A DNA stretch of 5,209 bases from Myxococcota bacterium (GTDB lineage Bacteria; Myxococcota; Polyangia; GCA-2747355; JAKLHH01), in NCBI GenBank assembly GCA_022710245.1, contig JAKLHH010000651.1:1-5209 (forward strand), read 5' to 3'. This document shows, one piece after another, positions 1 to 5,209 of this stretch. The stretch's first letter is position 1. Each line of letters begins with the position of its first letter. The notes beneath the pieces are model-generated. The model searched no databases. It had not been told where the DNA came from and saw only the letters and a list, made by a program, of their open reading frames with translations. The position numbers were made by a program, and so were the translations under genes.

Positions 1-1004
1 ACCTGCTGGCACGACTCGGTGACGAACTTCTTCGTCTCGCTGACCAGCCGCCGGACATAGGCCGCCGGCGCGCTCGCGTCCACCGCCCGCGCCGTGGTGT
101 AGACGAGGCTCCGGCTCGCGTCGAGGAGGGTCAGCGCCTCGGCGATCTGGAAGCTGACGCCCTGGAAGTCGCGGATGGTGCGGCCGAACGCCTTGCGCTT
201 GCCCGTGTAGCGGGTCGCGATCTCGAGCGCCGGGCGCGCCGCGCCGATGGTCATCGCGGCGGTGCCGAGGCGCTCGGGGATCATCATCGGGTAGAAGATG
301 TCGGCGGCCCCGTTCACCTGCCCGAGCACGTTACGCGCCGGGACGCGGACATCCTTGAAGGAGACGCGCGCCGCGCCGCCGCCGCGGCAGCCCATCAGCC
401 CGTAGAGGTACGCCGTCTCCACGCCGGGGCCTCGGTCGACGAGGAAGCAGGTCATCGAGCGGTGCGGCGGCGCGTCCGGATCGGTCTTGGCGTAGACCAG
501 GAAGTAGTCGGCGCCGTCCCCTCCGACGATGAAGCGCTTCTGGCCGCTCAGCACGTAGTCCTCGCCGTCGCGCACGGCGCGGGTGGTGGCGCCGAAGAAG
601 TCGGAGCCTCCGCGCGGCTCCGTGAGGCACTCGGCGGCGAAGAGCCGCCCCTCGAGGAGGGGGCGCACGTAGCGCTCGCGCTGCTCGTCGGTGCCCGCGG
701 CGACGATCGCGTCGCAGACGAGCTCCGCGCCGACGCCGAAGACGCAGGCGAAGATGTAGCCGAGGACCCCGACCTCCTCCATCACCATGCAGGTGTCGAC
801 CCAGGTGAGGCCGCGCCCGCCCCAGCGCTCCGGGTGGCGCACCCCCAGCAGCCGCCGCCGGCCGGCCTCGGCGAGGAACTCCTTGGGGAACTGCAGCTCG
901 TCGCGGTCCATCGCCAGGATCCAGTCGCGCGGCACCCAGCGGACCAGGTCGCGGACCTCGTCCCGCAGCGCGCGCTGCTGATCGGTGAGCAGGTGCTCGA
1001 ACAT
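1..1004 (-). CDS. acyl-CoA dehydrogenase, C-terminus cut off by window edge
   Basis: FAD-dependent flavoenzyme of the acyl-CoA dehydrogenase family, which forms the alpha,beta double bond of an acyl-CoA and passes electrons to electron-transfer flavoprotein in the cytoplasm. The reading frame gives 334 uninterrupted residues starting MFEHLLTDQQRALRDEV. Seen: the family's first signature, CLTEPRGGSDFFG, at residues 126-138; the middle beta-domain ending in VSFKDVRVPARNVLG; and RKAFGR around R270-R275, where family members contact FAD. E244, in MIPERL, aligns by eye with the helix-G glutamate that is the catalytic base in isovaleryl- and long-chain enzymes. The alternative C-terminal base position is outside the window. 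Members are usually about 380-400 residues, so some 50-60 are missing. ATG 1004 is chosen because GAGGAGGA lies 5 bases upstream; an in-frame ATG at 1058 has no such site. Family is sure; substrate cannot be told. Confidence 0.95.
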   Translation of the reverse strand, partial: MFEHLLTDQQRALRDEVRDLVRWVPRDWILAMDRDELQFPKEFLAEAGRRRLLGVRHPERWGGRGLTWVDTCMVMEEVGVLGYIFACVFGVGAELVCDAIVAAGTDEQRERYVRPLLEGRLFAAECLTEPRGGSDFFGATTRAVRDGEDYVLSGQKRFIVGGDGADYFLVYAKTDPDAPPHRSMTCFLVDRGPGVETAYLYGLMGCRGGGAARVSFKDVRVPARNVLGQVNGAADIFYPMMIPERLGTAAMTIGAARPALEIATRYTGKRKAFGRTIRDFQGVSFQIAEALTLLDASRSLVYTTARAVDASAPAAYVRRLVSETKKFVTESCQQ

Positions 1005-1008
1005 GGCG

Positions 1009-1016
1009 TCCTCCTC
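1009..1016 (-). promoter_or_regulatory. ribosome binding site of the acyl-CoA dehydrogenase gene
   Basis: GAGGAGGA on the minus strand ends 4 bases before ATG 1004 (the GGAGG core ends 5 bases before it). It decides between this start and the in-frame ATG at 1058, which would add 18 residues (MLVAPPDTP...) that do not resemble the usual N-terminus of the family. Confidence 0.75.
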
Positions 1017-1063
1017 GGCGCGGTCGGCTGCCGGGGTGTCCGGCGGCGCGACGAGCATGGCCG

Positions 1064-1168
1064 TCGCCGAGGGACTTGCCCTTCACCGCGCGGCGTCCGC
1101 AGGACGCGAGCAGGGCAAGTCCGCCCTCGCGGAGCGTCAGAAGGACGCCAGCAGGGCAAGATCGGCGA
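1064..1168. repeat. intergenic element with imperfect terminal inverted repeats (MITE-like or RNA structure)
   Basis: A 105-base segment lies between the metal-binding lipoprotein gene and the acyl-CoA dehydrogenase gene. Its left end is TCGCCGA (1064-1070), then four bases, then CTTGCCCT (1075-1082). Its right end is AGGGCAAG (1153-1160), one base, then TCGGCGA (1162-1168). The two ends pair over 8 and 7 bases with a small asymmetric internal loop. The left arm GGACTTGCCCT (1072-1082) also pairs perfectly over 11 bases with AGGGCAAGTCC (1112-1122), so the two pairings exclude each other. A nested hairpin GCGTCC-GCA-GGACGC sits at 1093-1107. No target-site duplication is visible and no T-run follows, so a standard intrinsic terminator is not supported. 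It could be a small dispersed repeat or a leader structure of the downstream gene; the sequence alone does not decide. Confidence 0.6.
1093..1160. repeat. two tandem imperfect repeats, 27 nt conserved, 41-nt period
   Basis: Copy 1 (1093-1119) and copy 2 (1134-1160) match at 24 of 27 bases; the longest shared block, starting GGACGC at 1102 and at 1143, matches 17 of 18. Each copy begins with a small hairpin: GCGTCC-GCA-GGACGC at 1093-1107 and GCGTC-AGAAG-GACGC at 1134-1148. Each hairpin is followed by CAGGGCAAG. A third, partial copy, GCGTCCGCCGGA, starts at 1177 inside the last codons of the lipoprotein gene. The repeats lie within the larger 1064-1168 element. Confidence 0.7.
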
Positions 1169-1173
1169 GGCGA

Positions 1174-1521
1174 TCAGCGTCCGCCGGAGGGCTCGGCGGC
1201 GCGGGCAGCGCGGGGAGGGGACGCGGCGCGGTAACCGAGCCGGGTGATCGCCTCCACGATCTGCCCCGGCTGCAGCCGGACCTCGTCATAGGTGACCTGC
1301 GTCTGGCGCAGGGTCCTCGAGGCCTTCACCGCCTGCACGCCGTCGAGCCTCCCCACCGTCTCCTGGATGGCGCGCTCGCAGGCGCCGCAGGTCATGCCCT
1401 CGGTGGGGAAGATCGTCGTGGTGATGCGCGGCGGCTTGACTGGCTTCTTGCAGCTCACCGCGGCCGCGCCGAGCAGCACCACGAGCCCTACCAGCACCTT
1501 CCTGGCCATGTAGTATCGCAT
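1174..1521 (-). CDS. small HMA-domain metal-binding lipoprotein (MerP/copper-chaperone-like)
   Basis: A complete 115-residue protein. Residues 1-24 form a lipoprotein-type signal: MRYYMARK, a hydrophobic run VLVGLVVLLGAAA, then AVSC with C24 as the predicted lipidated cysteine (an acceptable but not ideal lipobox). Residues about 33-98 form one heavy-metal-associated domain with the metal-binding loop GMTCGAC (C45, C48) and the usual beta-alpha-beta ending in AITRLGYRAA. The tail from about 101 is Ala/Pro/Arg-rich and probably disordered. Such domains bind Cu(I), Hg(II) or similar soft metals; a membrane-anchored extracytoplasmic version would scavenge or hand over metal. No ATPase, reductase or metal regulator is adjacent, so the metal is unknown. 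ATG 1521 is chosen because GAGGAGG ends 5 bases before it; Met5 (ATG 1509) would be 17 bases away. It is divergent from the sigma gene and upstream, on the same strand, of the acyl-CoA dehydrogenase gene with a 169-base gap. Confidence 0.88.
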   Translation of the reverse strand: MRYYMARKVLVGLVVLLGAAAVSCKKPVKPPRITTTIFPTEGMTCGACERAIQETVGRLDGVQAVKASRTLRQTQVTYDEVRLQPGQIVEAITRLGYRAASPPRAARAAEPSGGR

Positions 1522-1526
1522 ACTAC
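1510..1526. promoter_or_regulatory. perfect 7-bp inverted repeat spanning the lipoprotein start codon
   Basis: GTAGTAT-CGC-ATACTAC is a perfect inverted repeat with a 3-base centre. It covers the ATG at 1521-1519 and the bases between that ATG and the ribosome binding site (1527-1533). It is unusually AT-rich for this sequence. As DNA it could be an operator for a dimeric regulator; as mRNA it would form a hairpin that hides the start codon. I could not match it to a known metal-regulator box. Confidence 0.55.
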
Positions 1527-1530
1527 CCTC

Positions 1531-1562
1531 CTCGCCTGAACCCTCGCCTGACCCTCGCCAGA
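1531..1562. repeat. three short direct repeats CTCGCC(T/A)GA upstream of the lipoprotein gene
   Basis: CTCGCCTGA occurs at 1531-1539 and 1543-1551, and CTCGCCAGA at 1554-1562, so the copies start 12 and 11 bases apart, close to one helical turn. The first copy touches the ribosome binding site of the minus-strand lipoprotein gene. Helical phasing of this kind suits cooperative protein binding, but the stretch is short and could be simple slippage. Confidence 0.5.
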
Positions 1563-1659
1563 GGTGCGGGGACAAAACCTTCCTGCCCCGCGCCTGTCCA
1601 ACCCTGCGGCCGGCTCGCGAGGACCTCACGGATTCGCCCCTCGCGGCCACTTCAGACAC

Positions 1660-1664
1660 GGAGG
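1660..1664 (+). promoter_or_regulatory. ribosome binding site of the sigma-factor gene
   Basis: GGAGG lies 4 bases before ATG 1669. It selects this start over the in-frame ATG at 1564, whose extra 35 residues (MRGQNLPAPR...) look like translated intergenic DNA and have no comparable site. Confidence 0.7.
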
Positions 1665-1668
1665 CAAC

Positions 1669-2298
1669 ATGCAGAGCGGCGCGAGACCGGCCCCCGGGGC
1701 GAAGCCACCAGACGACACCGATAGCCTGATCAGCCACAGCATCGCGCGCAAGGAGTACCGGCGAGCGCTCGAGCTCCTGGCCCGCGCCTACGCCGCGCGC
1801 CTCGGTCGCTTCTGCCTCGCCGCGCTCGGCGACCAGGGCGAGGCCGAGGAGCTGGTGCAGGAGATCCTGCTGGCGGCGCACGGAGCGATGCCCCGCTTCG
1901 AGGGGCGCTCCGCCGTGCGGCCCTGGCTCTACACCATCGCCCGCCGCACCTGCGGCCACGCCCTGCAGAAGCGTGGCCGACGCTCGCGGCTGGCGGTGCT
2001 CCAGCCGCTCCCCGCGCCCCCCGAGGACCCCTACCAGCTCGCGCTCGCGCGCGGGCAGCGCGAGCGGTTGCGTCGCGCGCTGGCCGAGCTCACGCCGGCC
2101 GCGCAGGAGGTGCTGCTGCTGCGCTACGCCGGCGGGCTCAGCTTCCGCGAGGTGGCCGAGGTCTGCGGCATCCGCGAGGACGCCGCGCGGCAGAGGGCCT
2201 CCAGCGGGCTGCGGCTGCTGCGCCGCGAGCTCGAGGAGCTGCGCGAGGACGCACCCGCCCCCGCCGAGGGCGCTGTCTGTCAGGAGGTGTCGCGATGA
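1669..2298 (+). CDS. ECF-like sigma-70 family RNA polymerase sigma factor
   Basis: A 209-residue protein with only the two core sigma domains, the layout of extracytoplasmic-function sigma factors, which direct RNA polymerase to a specific promoter set when released from an anti-sigma factor. Region 2 spans about residues 36-103; it shows GDQGEAEELVQEILLAAH (54-71) and the RPWLYTIARRTC stretch (84-95), as in the family's WLxxIARN core. Region 4 spans about 132-188; it includes LTPAAQEVLLLRYAGGLSF (141-159) and a helix-turn-helix, REVAEVCGIREDAARQRASS, that reads the -35 element. Residues 1-25 are a polar Pro/Asp-containing extension. The stop codon overlaps the next gene's start in ATGA, so the two are co-transcribed and probably translationally coupled. 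That next gene begins with an anti-sigma motif, which fits a cognate pair. The target promoter and the ECF group cannot be determined here. Confidence 0.93.
   Translation: MQSGARPAPGAKPPDDTDSLISHSIARKEYRRALELLARAYAARLGRFCLAALGDQGEAEELVQEILLAAHGAMPRFEGRSAVRPWLYTIARRTCGHALQKRGRRSRLAVLQPLPAPPEDPYQLALARGQRERLRRALAELTPAAQEVLLLRYAGGLSFREVAEVCGIREDAARQRASSGLRLLRRELEELREDAPAPAEGAVCQEVSR
2282..2287 (+). promoter_or_regulatory. strong ribosome binding site inside the end of the sigma gene
   Basis: AGGAGG lies 7 bases before ATG 2295 and 10 before the adjacent ATG 2298. It supports the first ATG as the start of the multidomain gene and allows independent or coupled initiation at the ATGA overlap. Confidence 0.8.
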
Positions 2299-5209
2299 TG
2301 ACGTGCAAGCAGATCGAGCTGGAGCTGGCGAGCCTCCTCGAGGATCAACCGCCGCCCGAGGCCGTCGAGGAGCACCTCGATCGGTGCGAGGCCTGCGCCG
2401 CGCTGGTCCACCGCAGCGGCCGCATGGTGGCGGGCCTCGTCGCGCTCGGCGATGGGTTCCGCGTGCCGGACGACCTCGTCGCCCGCGTGCTGGCGGCGGC
2501 GCCCGCCGACCCTGCGCCCGCCTGGCGGACCCGCGCCGCGGCGCTGCTCGCGGCCTCCAGGCAGAGCCTCGCGCTGCGCGTGGCCCTCGTCGCCGGCGGG
2601 CTCGCGCTGGCGCTCGGGCTGGCGCTCACCGCCGGGCGCCGGCCGATGCCACCCGTCGCCGTGCCGGGCGCGCCCGCGCTCGCGGTGGTCGAGCTCTCCG
2701 CCCCGGGCGGCGCGCCCCCTCGCCTCGAGCAGCGGGTGGCCGGCCGCTGGGTGCCGGTCGCCGCGGGCGCGAAGCTCGCGCCCTCGCGGCTGCGCGTCGA
2801 CGGGCAGAGCCGCGCCCGCCTGCGCCTCGCCGACGGCACGACCCTGCTGCTCAGGCGCGGCAGCGAGCTCGGCCTCGACGCCGCCGACCTCCTCGAGCTC
2901 CGCCGGGGCGCGCTGGTCGCCGAGGTCGCCCCGCGGCGCGCCGGCGCACGCCCGTTCGCCATCCGCGTGCCGACCGGGCGCGTCGAGGTGCTCGGCACCA
3001 AGTTCCACCTCAGCGCCGACGAGCAGCTCGCGGTGGTCGACGTGGTGCACGGCGCCGTGCGCCTCGGCGACCCCGCCGTCGGCTGGCAGACCGTGGGCCC
3101 GGCCCAGGAGGGCGCGCTGACCCGTGCGCGCGTCTCGACCGGGCAGGCGCCCGACCTCGGCCGCGTCCTCGCCTGGACGCAGCCCGCGGAGGGGATCGAT
3201 CCGGAGCCCGCCCCCTCGGGTCTCGGCTCCCTCACCGCGCACCCGCCGGGCCGCGAGGCGAGCCCGCGCGCGCTCGCCCTCGCCGAGCACAAGGTCGACG
3301 TGCGGATCCAGGGCGCGCTGGCGCGGACCGAGATCAGCGAGACCTTCGAGAACCCCGGCGGCGAGACGCTCGAGGGTGTCTACCGCTTCCCGCTCCCGCC
3401 GGGCGCGCGCATCTCGCGCCTCGCGCTGTGGGTCGACGGCCGCCTGGAGGAGGGGACCCTCGTCGAGCGCGACCGCGCCGCCAAGATCTGGCGCGGGGTG
3501 ATCCGGCAGTCGACGCCGCTCGCGCTGCGCAAGGCCGAGGAGTACGTCTGGGTGCCGGGCCCCTGGCGCGACCCCGCGCTCCTCCAGTGGAAGCAGGGCA
3601 GCCAGTTCGAGCTGCGCATCTTCCCCATCCCGGCGCACGGGAGCCGCACCGTCGTCCTCGGCTACACCGAGACCCTCCCGGCCACCGCGCGCGGGCGCCG
3701 CTACGTCTACCCCCTCGCCGAGGACCGCGAGGGCAAGGCGCGCGCGCGCCGCTTCGAGCTGACCGCGCAGCTCGCCGGGCACCTGCCCGGGGAGCCGCTC
3801 CTCGCGCCCGGCTACGCCCTCGAGCGGCGGCAGGACGGCGCCTCGGAGCGGCTGCGCTTCGCGGCGAGCCGCTTCGTCCCCGCGGGCGACCTGGTCCTCG
3901 ACTTCGCGACGCGCGAGGCGGGGCCGCTGAAGGTCCACACCTACCAGGGGCCGGGCGGCGAGGCGGGCTATGCGCTCTTCTCGCTCCGCCCCGAGCTCCC
4001 CGGCTACCGCGACCTCAGGCCGCGCTCGCTCCTCCTCGTCGTCGATCGATCCTACAGCAGCGTCGGCGAGGCCAGCCGCCGGCAGAAGCTGCTCGTCGCC
4101 GAGCTGCTCGCCGAGCTCGACCGGAGCGACGAGGTCGCGCTCCTTACCTGCGACTCGCGCTGCCGCCCGGCTGGCGCATGGAAGGCCCCGGGGGCGACCA
4201 CCACCGCCAGCCTCCTCGCCTCCCTGGAGCGCACCCCGCCGGGGGGCGCCACCGACCTCGGCGAGGCGCTGCGCGCCGCGGGCGAGCTCCTCGGGCGGCG
4301 AGCGGCCGCGCGCCCCGCGCGGGTCATCTACCTCGGTGACGGCACGCCGACCGCCGGCGAGCTGGAGGCAGGGCGCCTCACGGCGCTCGTCTCGCGCCAC
4401 CTGGGGCCCAGCCACGCGCGCCTCACCACCGTCGGGGTGGGCACCGCCGTGGACGGCAAGATCCTGGAGGCGCTCGCCCGCGCTGGCGGCGGGAGCTACC
4501 TCGGCTACGCGCCGGGCACCACCGCCCGCGGCCAGGCGCTGCTCGTCCTCGCTCGCCAGTACGGCCCCGTCCTCGAGGAGCTCTCCGTCGAGCTCCCCGG
4601 GGGCGTCAGCGAGATCGCGCCGCGCCGCCTGACCACCCTCCACGCCGGAGAGGAGCTCCTCGTCACGGGTCGCGCGCGCGGCCGCATCGAGGGCGCGGTG
4701 CGCGTGAGCGGCCGCGTCAACGGCGAGCCGTTCCGCGCCAGCTACCCCGTCTCCGCCGAGCTGCAGCCGCGGGCGGGGAACGCCTTCCTGCCCCGCCTCT
4801 GGGCGCAGCTCACCATCGACGAGCTCGCCGCCGACGAGGCCGCCGACCACCGCGAGGCGATCGTCGCGCTGAGCAAGCAGCACGGGCTCCTCTCGCGCCA
4901 CACCTCGCTCCTCGTCCTCGAGAGCGAGGCGATGCGGCGCGCCTTCGGGGTCGCGCGGGCCACCGCGCTCGCCGACTGGAGCGGACGCGAGGCCGCCGAG
5001 GACACCTCGACGGCGCTCGGGCTGCGCGGCACCGGCCGCGGCGGCGGCGGCTCCGCCGAGGCCCTCGATGGCCACGACGCTGACCCGGTCGGCCTCGGCG
5101 GCCTGGGCACCCTCGGCAAGGGCGCCGGCGGCGGCACGGGCGCGGGCTACGGACGGCTGGCGGCGGTCCGCGCCGCGAGGTCCAAGGGGGTGCTCGGGCT
5201 GCGCGGCTC
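2295..5209 (+). CDS. anti-sigma (ZAS)-TM-FecR-VIT-VWA multidomain protein, C-terminus outside window
   Basis: At least 971 residues without a stop. Order: a ZAS zinc motif with C4 and H27-x3-C31-x2-C34 (HLDRCEAC), known to bind ECF sigma factors; one hydrophobic helix, about 96-113 (VALVAGG...LTAG); a FecR-like domain, about 160-255, with ADGTTLLLRRGSEL and VEVLGTKFHL; a VIT domain, about 331-463, with ETFENPGGETLEGVYRFPLP and a DPALLQW segment; and a VWA domain, about 577-740. The VWA has a full metal-ion-dependent adhesion site: D584-R-S586-Y-S588, T653 in GGATDLGEAL, and D682 in YLGDGTPT. LSKQHGLLSRHTSLLVLES (859-877) is typical of the end of VIT/VWA proteins. A glycine-rich tail starts near 908. 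Only five cysteines are seen; C619 and C623 lie in the VWA. Predicted topology is ZAS in the cytoplasm and everything after the helix outside. It overlaps the sigma gene by four bases, so it is probably that factor's regulator. Domain calls are by eye; the sensed signal is unknown. Confidence 0.92.
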   Translation, partial: MMTCKQIELELASLLEDQPPPEAVEEHLDRCEACAALVHRSGRMVAGLVALGDGFRVPDDLVARVLAAAPADPAPAWRTRAAALLAASRQSLALRVALVAGGLALALGLALTAGRRPMPPVAVPGAPALAVVELSAPGGAPPRLEQRVAGRWVPVAAGAKLAPSRLRVDGQSRARLRLADGTTLLLRRGSELGLDAADLLELRRGALVAEVAPRRAGARPFAIRVPTGRVEVLGTKFHLSADEQLAVVDVVHGAVRLGDPAVGWQTVGPAQEGALTRARVSTGQAPDLGRVLAWTQPAEGIDPEPAPSGLGSLTAHPPGREASPRALALAEHKVDVRIQGALARTEISETFENPGGETLEGVYRFPLPPGARISRLALWVDGRLEEGTLVERDRAAKIWRGVIRQSTPLALRKAEEYVWVPGPWRDPALLQWKQGSQFELRIFPIPAHGSRTVVLGYTETLPATARGRRYVYPLAEDREGKARARRFELTAQLAGHLPGEPLLAPGYALERRQDGASERLRFAASRFVPAGDLVLDFATREAGPLKVHTYQGPGGEAGYALFSLRPELPGYRDLRPRSLLLVVDRSYSSVGEASRRQKLLVAELLAELDRSDEVALLTCDSRCRPAGAWKAPGATTTASLLASLERTPPGGATDLGEALRAAGELLGRRAAARPARVIYLGDGTPTAGELEAGRLTALVSRHLGPSHARLTTVGVGTAVDGKILEALARAGGGSYLGYAPGTTARGQALLVLARQYGPVLEELSVELPGGVSEIAPRRLTTLHAGEELLVTGRARGRIEGAVRVSGRVNGEPFRASYPVSAELQPRAGNAFLPRLWAQLTIDELAADEAADHREAIVALSKQHGLLSRHTSLLVLESEAMRRAFGVARATALADWSGREAAEDTSTALGLRGTGRGGGGSAEALDGHDADPVGLGGLGTLGKGAGGGTGAGYGRLAAVRAARSKGVLGLRG
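5016..5209 (+). other. glycine-rich low-complexity tail of the VIT/VWA protein
   Basis: From residue 908 the protein changes to a glycine-rich segment, with GTGRGGGG at 912-919 and GLGGLGTLGKG followed by GGGTGAGYG at 933-953. It ends in the basic stretch RLAAVRAARSKGVLGLRG at the window edge. From memory, similar GLGxLGTxG linkers in myxobacterial proteins often precede an AgmX/PglI (TonB-like) C-terminal domain. Such a domain may lie just beyond the edge, but that is inference. Confidence 0.6.

Follow-up and report, generated by a model that had tools for sequence, protein, structure and literature searches.

Which signal frees an extracytoplasmic function (ECF) sigma factor when the gene overlapping its own encodes a protein that combines an anti-sigma-like N-terminus with a FecR domain and a large VIT-VWA ectodomain? 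This question was raised by a 5,209-nucleotide (nt) stretch of DNA from a Myxococcota bacterium (assembly GCA_022710245.1, contig JAKLHH010000651.1, positions 1 to 5,209), referred to here as the window. Its plus strand carries a gene for a 209-amino-acid sigma factor with regions 2 and 4 (1669-2298) and a gene for a membrane anti-sigma/FecR/VIT/VWA protein (P0002; 2295-5209, open at the window end), recognised from its open reading frame and Pfam matches. The latter frame spans 971 codons to position 5207 and leaves the window, and the C-terminus of its protein lies outside. The pair probably forms a two-gene, self-regulated signalling module, in which a single-pass anti-sigma protein with a FecR hinge and a sensor resembling inter-alpha-trypsin-inhibitor heavy chains (ITIH) would release the ECF sigma factor upon proteolysis. 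As far as its sequence tells, the long-frame protein is best described as a variant of FecR-type anti-sigma factors with a class I domain, a predicted self-cleavage bond and an ITIH-like periplasmic sensor.

Linkage of the Sigma Factor and Anti-Sigma Genes

The product of 1669-2298 is classified as an ECF (group 4) sigma factor. It matched Sigma70_r2 (7.5e-15), Sigma70_r4_2 (8.2e-12) and TIGR02937 (1.4e-25), with both region models above cut-off and no region 1.1 or region 3 model listed. Its stop codon and the start codon of the long frame overlap as ATGA at 2295-2298, as an earlier note on this DNA had stated. The survey for the same gene order beside ECF sigma genes that the note had proposed yielded 77 distinct pairs of sigma and anti-sigma genes, that of the window among them (four duplicates removed), each with a sigma frame just upstream. 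An ATGA-type overlap occurred in 33 of these pairs, and in 66 the anti-sigma start lay no more than 30 nt from the stop codon of the sigma gene; the start was assigned to the ATG closest to that stop, a choice that favours small gaps. Because the sigma frames were located with a model built from these same loci, they were checked independently against Pfam, which found Sigma70_r4_2 in 77/77 and Sigma70_r2 in 71/77.

Relatives were abundant. A protein search returned 386 at E <= 0.001, of which 120 were listed, mostly of approximately 1300-1500 amino acids; one of these, P0066, is from Sandaracinus amylolyticus. Genome contigs were also scanned, with 146 matching loci, of which the best 80 were retained. 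Myxobacterial or 'Deltaproteobacteria' names were attached to 79 of these 80. At E <= 1e-40, P0002 matched in 39 of 188 sampled genomes from the phylum of genome G001; some of the weaker genome matches were paralogues in which neither an anti-sigma motif nor a sigma gene was detected. Among family loci above 450 bits with a readable sigma state (n = 81), 77 had a sigma gene just upstream; this cut-off was chosen by the author after inspection of the linkage data, and loci with an upstream stretch shorter than 600 nt were left out, their sigma state being counted as unknown. Fifteen lower-scoring paralogue rows, counted separately, had no sigma gene in at least 600 nt upstream. The sigma/anti-sigma module is thus recurrent, mostly in Myxococcota, and this recurrence speaks against a chance arrangement. 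As a branch of ECF signalling in this phylum it would be widespread and, it appears, uncharacterised. Literature searches returned no description of an anti-sigma/FecR/VIT/VWA architecture; the 2021 ECF reclassification lay outside them and may hold a catalogue entry.

Distances between sigma factors correlated with those between anti-sigma domains after VIT-VWA distance had been regressed out (partial r 0.23). The corresponding values were 0.06 for sigma-FecR and 0.05 for anti-sigma-FecR, and the bootstrap difference between the sigma-anti-sigma and sigma-FecR values was 0.03 to 0.36. This residual covariation gives modest support to a specific partnership of the two proteins.

The four readable loci without a separate adjacent sigma gene were of two kinds. 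In L076 a sigma piece is fused in front of the main frame, and L058, L066 and L097 have no sigma gene. L066 retains the membrane helix and lacks the anti-sigma domain. In L097 (259-4398, minus strand), which lies among the sigma-linked rows of the tree, a lipoprotein-like signal replaces the anti-sigma domain and a TonB-like tail stands at the extreme C-terminus; the gene upstream carries what we take to be a CDGSH-like motif.

Natural fusions with sigma pieces ahead of the anti-sigma/FecR protein were found in P0067, P0103 and L076 (7497-11984). The P0067 fusion keeps sigma region 2, with little that looks by eye like an anti-sigma domain ahead of the helix; P0103 keeps sigma region 4 and the HxxxCxxC segment, and L076, by eye, does likewise. 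These fusions may be membrane-tethered sigma factors or dead remnants. Those in P0103 and L076 speak in favour of the release mechanism proposed below. A precedent for such rare single chains is IutY of Pseudomonas putida, described as a sigma factor fused to a FecR-like anti-sigma factor (PMC9249621), in contrast to which the window encodes the two parts in separate, overlapping genes.

The N-Terminal Class I Anti-Sigma Domain

Residues 1-70 of the long-frame protein (2295-2504, plus strand) were assigned to the class I anti-sigma domains, because the segment HLDRCEAC is present and the family profile matches RsiW and RsrA. The segment is an HxxxCxxC motif (residues 27-34, with H27, C31 and C34; 2373-2396), and the structure model placed helices at residues 4-9, 11-15, 22-30, 32-50 and 61-68. 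A profile of the 77 N-termini matched RsiW (1.2e-7), RsrA (4.4e-5), DdvA (0.1) and ChrR (0.34) in the PDB; two designed repeat proteins were also among the best matches (2.6e-7 and 3.9e-7), with no single stretch passing alone. The window protein thus shares the sigma-binding type of helical domain and the HxxxCxxC motif with RsiW, RsrA and ChrR, none of which, to our knowledge, carries a FecR/VIT/VWA ectodomain. A single membrane helix follows at residues ~94-114 (2574-2636), visible as a hydrophobic run, across which the confidence of the structure model was below 50. The co-occurrence on one chain of a zinc-binding anti-sigma motif, one helix and FecR, VIT and VWA domains, reported in the earlier note, was borne out by HLDRCEAC, this helix and Pfam matches to FecR, VIT and VWA_2. 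We infer that the N-terminal domain binds and inhibits the sigma factor.

The HxxxCxxC motif was present in 59 of the 77 pairs and lost in 18, mainly in a Sandaracinus-like set. These 18 retain the sigma gene and, by eye, the rest of the anti-sigma domain. Loss of the motif beside a retained sigma gene had been put forward in advance as evidence against an anti-sigma role. It literally occurs in these 18 pairs, but the test itself is not valid and was rejected, because zinc and non-zinc class I anti-sigma domains are described as mixed within groups (PMC7406223). Neither the motif nor a zf-HC2 match above cut-off is obligatory for class I membership; zf-HC2 was found at E <= 0.1 in 36 of the 77 family members.

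The FecR Domain and Its Gly-Thr Bond

Beyond the helix lies a FecR domain (residues 165-256; 2787-3062; PF04773, 5.1e-13). In a one-target search, the family FecR profile matched E. coli FecR at 9.4e-17 and aligned Gly234-Thr235 of the window protein (2994-2999) with Gly181-Thr182. This is the bond at which FecR is reported to cleave itself, as is Gly191-Thr192 in FoxR (PMC9249621). Of 121 proteins compared, comprising the window protein and the 120 listed relatives, 120 kept Gly-Thr and one, the sigma-fused P0103, did not; an alignment with Gly-Thr in 94/94 rows omitted this protein. Of the other fusions, L076 also lacks Gly-Thr and P0067 retains it. On the family tree, Gly-Thr occurred in 73 of 77 sigma-linked rows and in 4 of 13 scorable sigma-free rows (5 were not scorable), counts that leave out 12 loci with an unknown or fused sigma state. 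The association of Gly-Thr with sigma linkage is suggestive, and the FecR domain of the window protein probably self-cleaves at Gly234-Thr235.

The protein shares with the FecR and FoxR systems of the FecI-FecR-FecA type an ECF sigma factor with a single-pass anti-sigma protein, a periplasmic FecR domain and the conserved Gly-Thr bond. It differs from them in its RsiW/RsrA-like class I sigma-binding domain, in the ITIH-like ectodomain that follows FecR and in that no recurrent receptor gene was found. FecR-type regulators have characteristic N-terminal sigma-binding and C-terminal receptor-binding domains. Only zf-HC2, FecR, VIT and VWA models were listed for the window protein up to E 1, and neither of the two FecR-type terminal domains was listed in seven full-length relatives.

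An ITIH-Like Ectodomain

The ectodomain comprises a VIT domain (residues 330-457; 3282-3665; Pfam 1.1e-16) and a VWA domain (residues 579-735; 4029-4499; PF13519 and PF13768, with VWA_2 at 1.2e-8 over residues 579-683). The earlier note's reading of the VWA domain as bearing a metal-ion-dependent adhesion site (MIDAS) agrees with its DxSxS motif (D584/S586/S588; 4044-4058). D584, S586 and S588, together with D682 and the cysteines of a CxxxC motif (C619/C623; 4149-4163), were invariant in both family alignments (45 and 94 rows). The invariant CxxxC is a possible periplasmic disulphide or redox site. Pfam matches, alignment and structure modelling agreed on a VIT domain followed by a VWA domain with MIDAS in an ITIH fold, at 19% identity to ITIH. 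This predicted fold has no known ligand. In contrast to the ITIH proteins, the window protein is bacterial, membrane-anchored and fused to FecR and anti-sigma domains. The ITIH-like sensor resembles a human blood protein.

Because the protein has one helix and its anti-sigma domain is inside, its ectodomain is expected to be periplasmic in a diderm cell. The proposal that surface contact is relayed directly to transcription is not sustained by this N-in topology, and nothing was found in the protein that crosses the outer membrane.

After the VWA domain, full-length relatives continue with a linker, tetratricopeptide repeats (TPRs) and a beta-rich C-terminal domain. In the window the sequence stops within a Gly-rich linker (residues 908-971; 5016-5207; model confidence (pLDDT) <50). 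In the clade relatives of the window, this linker precedes an AgmX/PglI TonB-like tail (NF033768/TonB_C), then TPRs and the beta-rich domain, all outside the window. The tail was matched at 2.7e-21 to 8.7e-31 in P0004, P0005, P0007 and P0011. A model seeded with these four gave 18 matches: 17 of the 120 listed relatives and the second frame of L001, the only tail match among the 80 genome loci. All nine protein relatives in the 11-row clade of the window (P0003-P0011, four of them model seeds) carry the tail. With 62% identity across 562 columns, L001 is the genome contig closest to the window, and it is only 3.4 kb long. It is also the one locus of the 80 without a myxobacterial or 'Deltaproteobacteria' name, being labelled Phycisphaera mikurensis, a planctomycete; our guess is that this label stems from mis-binning. 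The TonB-like C-terminal tail after a Gly-rich linker is shared with AgmX/PglI, a part of the myxobacterial gliding-motility machine, and with GltG and GltJ. The latter two are likewise described as motility-machine parts (PMC5349195), whereas the tail in the clade of the window forms part of an anti-sigma protein.

The C-terminal part, modelled on L041 (pLDDT 94), showed clear TPRs. The kind of its last, beta-rich part is unsettled, because PPC matches were weak (5 of 69 C-terminal pieces) and the fold tables for the L041 model were filled by the TPR part.

A Candidate Promoter of the Sigma Operon

A promoter-like element, CTCACGG-n16-CCAC, stands 12 nt before the sigma ATG (1621-1656, plus strand; TCAC at 1626-1629, CCAC at 1647-1650). 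The pattern TCAC-N17-SCAC occurred upstream of the sigma gene in 42 of the 77 regions, against a mean of 1.4 and a maximum of 6 in shuffled sequences. The consensus of 36 dereplicated aligned sites, GGTCACGAA-N14-SCAC, equivalent to GGTCACG-n16-SCAC, has the same spacing as the promoter TGTCACA-n16-CGTC given for ECF41 (PMC3426412). With a weight matrix, 43 of the 77 upstream regions scored above the 99% background value, backgrounds being drawn from the same loci with real sites included. For stretches of 220 nt, the score of the window copy was reached in only 0.67% of background, and 11 of the 35 loci outside the motif set (window included) scored at least 11. For the common ECF motifs (GGAAC/CGTC and two variants), no enrichment over shuffled sequences was seen.

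A genome search with GGTCACRAA-N14-SCAC returned 53 sites in 13 genomes, compared with 13 for the reversed control. Of the 30 sites that were scored, four exceeded 25, and all four were at sigma genes of this family; the remaining 26, none of which scored above 21.9, lay within frames of at least 371 amino acids. Autoregulation of the sigma operon would be the simplest reading, and the candidate promoter supports no claim about targets beyond it.

Proposed Mechanism and Alternative Explanations

The gene overlap, the domains, the conserved Gly-Thr and the promoter-like element, all legible in the DNA and its translation, are consistent with a mechanism for which we infer sigma binding, cleavage, proteolysis and a signal. 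The class I anti-sigma domain at the N-terminus of a single-pass inner-membrane protein would hold the ECF sigma factor. The periplasmic FecR domain of this protein would cleave itself at Gly234-Thr235, and the two halves would stay associated. The outer half would consist of the ITIH-like VIT-VWA sensor, in full-length relatives with TPRs and a beta-rich, PPC-like domain, and in the clade of the window also with the TonB-like tail. Binding or loss of an envelope partner would then lead periplasmic proteases to remove the outer half, after which a site-2 protease would cut the membrane helix and free the sigma factor, which would transcribe its own operon and further targets. A site-2 protease family was present in all 16 relative genomes searched; this is weak support, because all 14 control genomes also had it.

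Several observations weigh against this mechanism. In the Pfam check suggested by the earlier note, FecR, VIT and VWA were matched, and zf-HC2 reached 14.5 bits in the window protein, short of its cut-off of 22.2. Gly-Thr is absent from four sigma-linked rows, which have GA (L057, L064 and L069) or NT (L065) instead. The tree holds only three changes of sigma linkage, and because of this the association of Gly-Thr with sigma linkage is indistinguishable from shared ancestry; a test of correlated evolution, having no power with three changes, was dropped. In L058 (5462-8344) the anti-sigma domain is intact and no sigma gene was found in 5.4 kb upstream, where there is instead a divergent pair that, by its look, we take to be MoxR-like and VWA-like. 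The window copy of the promoter-like element is weak, scoring 11.4 where the 99% value of the background per 400 nt is 21.8, and none of the 30 scored sites in the 13 genomes was convincing beyond those at the sigma gene itself. Moreover, self-cleavage is reported not to be essential for activation in FoxR (PMC9249621).

Classical cell-surface signalling with a receptor was not adopted. Apart from the sigma gene, the largest recurrent neighbour family occurred in 16 of 81 sources, counting frames outside the main gene (larger clusters consisted of the main gene and antisense frames within it), and no receptor or motor family recurred beside the pair in these sources. Receptor plug domains occurred somewhere in 16/16 relative genomes searched; among the matches listed, only one genome (G181) had a plug domain no more than 10 kb from its best family locus, at 7.3 kb. 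Because no receptor gene was found travelling with the pair, the system does not appear to be classical cell-surface signalling. The contrast with that system drawn in the earlier note, in which sigma factor, regulator and receptor are separate proteins, is imprecise in that classical FecR is itself both anti-sigma factor and sensor. What differs in the window is that the FecR domain sits behind another sigma-binding domain and ahead of another sensor.

The same lack of a receptor travelling with the pair, and of any neighbour family except the sigma gene that recurs widely, would also suit a sensor of envelope integrity that has no dedicated ligand. Its ectodomain would bind peptidoglycan or envelope proteins, or fold on them, and misassembly would expose it to site-1 proteolysis, as in RseA-type stress signalling. 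Such a sensor is possible, if doubtful: the strict conservation of the MIDAS residues (D584, S586, S588 and D682) argues for a metal-dependent ligand. Mechanical tension seems an unlikely trigger. In that case the TonB-like tail would grip an outer-membrane partner and pull the self-cleaved outer half away, in the clade of the window perhaps powered by a Tol/Exb-type motor, and proteolysis and sigma release would follow. The conserved Gly-Thr makes two halves possible, and the AgmX/PglI tail is matched in the four seed proteins, in all of P0003-P0011 and in the second frame of L001. GltG and GltJ, single-pass proteins with such tails, are thought to contact outer-membrane proteins (PMC5349195). 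The window, however, stops before the tail, no motor or receptor family recurs nearby, and tail pulling cannot be a general mechanism, because the tail occurs in only 17 of the 120 listed relatives and, among the 80 genome loci, in L001. That a pull on the tail would part the FecR halves, free the sigma factor and so replace the FecA-FecR-TonB relay by a single-chain mechanical switch is quite improbable.

Two further alternatives concern the anti-sigma domain itself. It might activate or escort the sigma factor, as FecR does for FecI, instead of inhibiting it; this we consider decidedly improbable, as the domain resembles RsiW and RsrA, which are inhibitors, and no FecR-type N-terminal model matched. 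Favouring such a role, N-terminal fragments of FecR are reported to stimulate FecI-dependent transcription (PMC9249621). It might also be vestigial in a protein that is mainly structural or adhesive in the envelope. The sigma-free relatives L097 and L066 and the 15 paralogue rows without a sigma gene are compatible with this, but the adjacent sigma gene is kept in 77 of the 81 readable family loci and the anti-sigma domain co-varies with the sigma factor, which makes a vestigial domain very unlikely.

Under the proteolytic-release mechanism, the FecR self-cleavage module would operate here without a siderophore receptor alongside and joined to an ITIH/MIDAS sensor. What the FecR Gly-Thr break does in a system that involves no TonB-dependent receptor becomes testable, and the module offers a specific candidate promoter and defined sigma/anti-sigma pairs for testing.

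Other Features of the Window

No Rfam family scored above its gathering score in the window, and a scan of positions 1000-2400 for sigma-70 promoters and terminators found none. Comparison with plasmids gave no near match to the window, and anti-phage defence models had no match at E <= 0.001 for P0001, P0002 or P0005. A gene on the minus strand that is cut by the window edge (3-1058) matched an acyl-CoA dehydrogenase model. HMA-type proteins were not prominent among the recurrent neighbour families, which were not annotated individually. In the window, a small lipoprotein-like protein with an HMA domain (2.1e-12, for the longer frame) is encoded on the minus strand at 1174-1521, divergently from the sigma gene.

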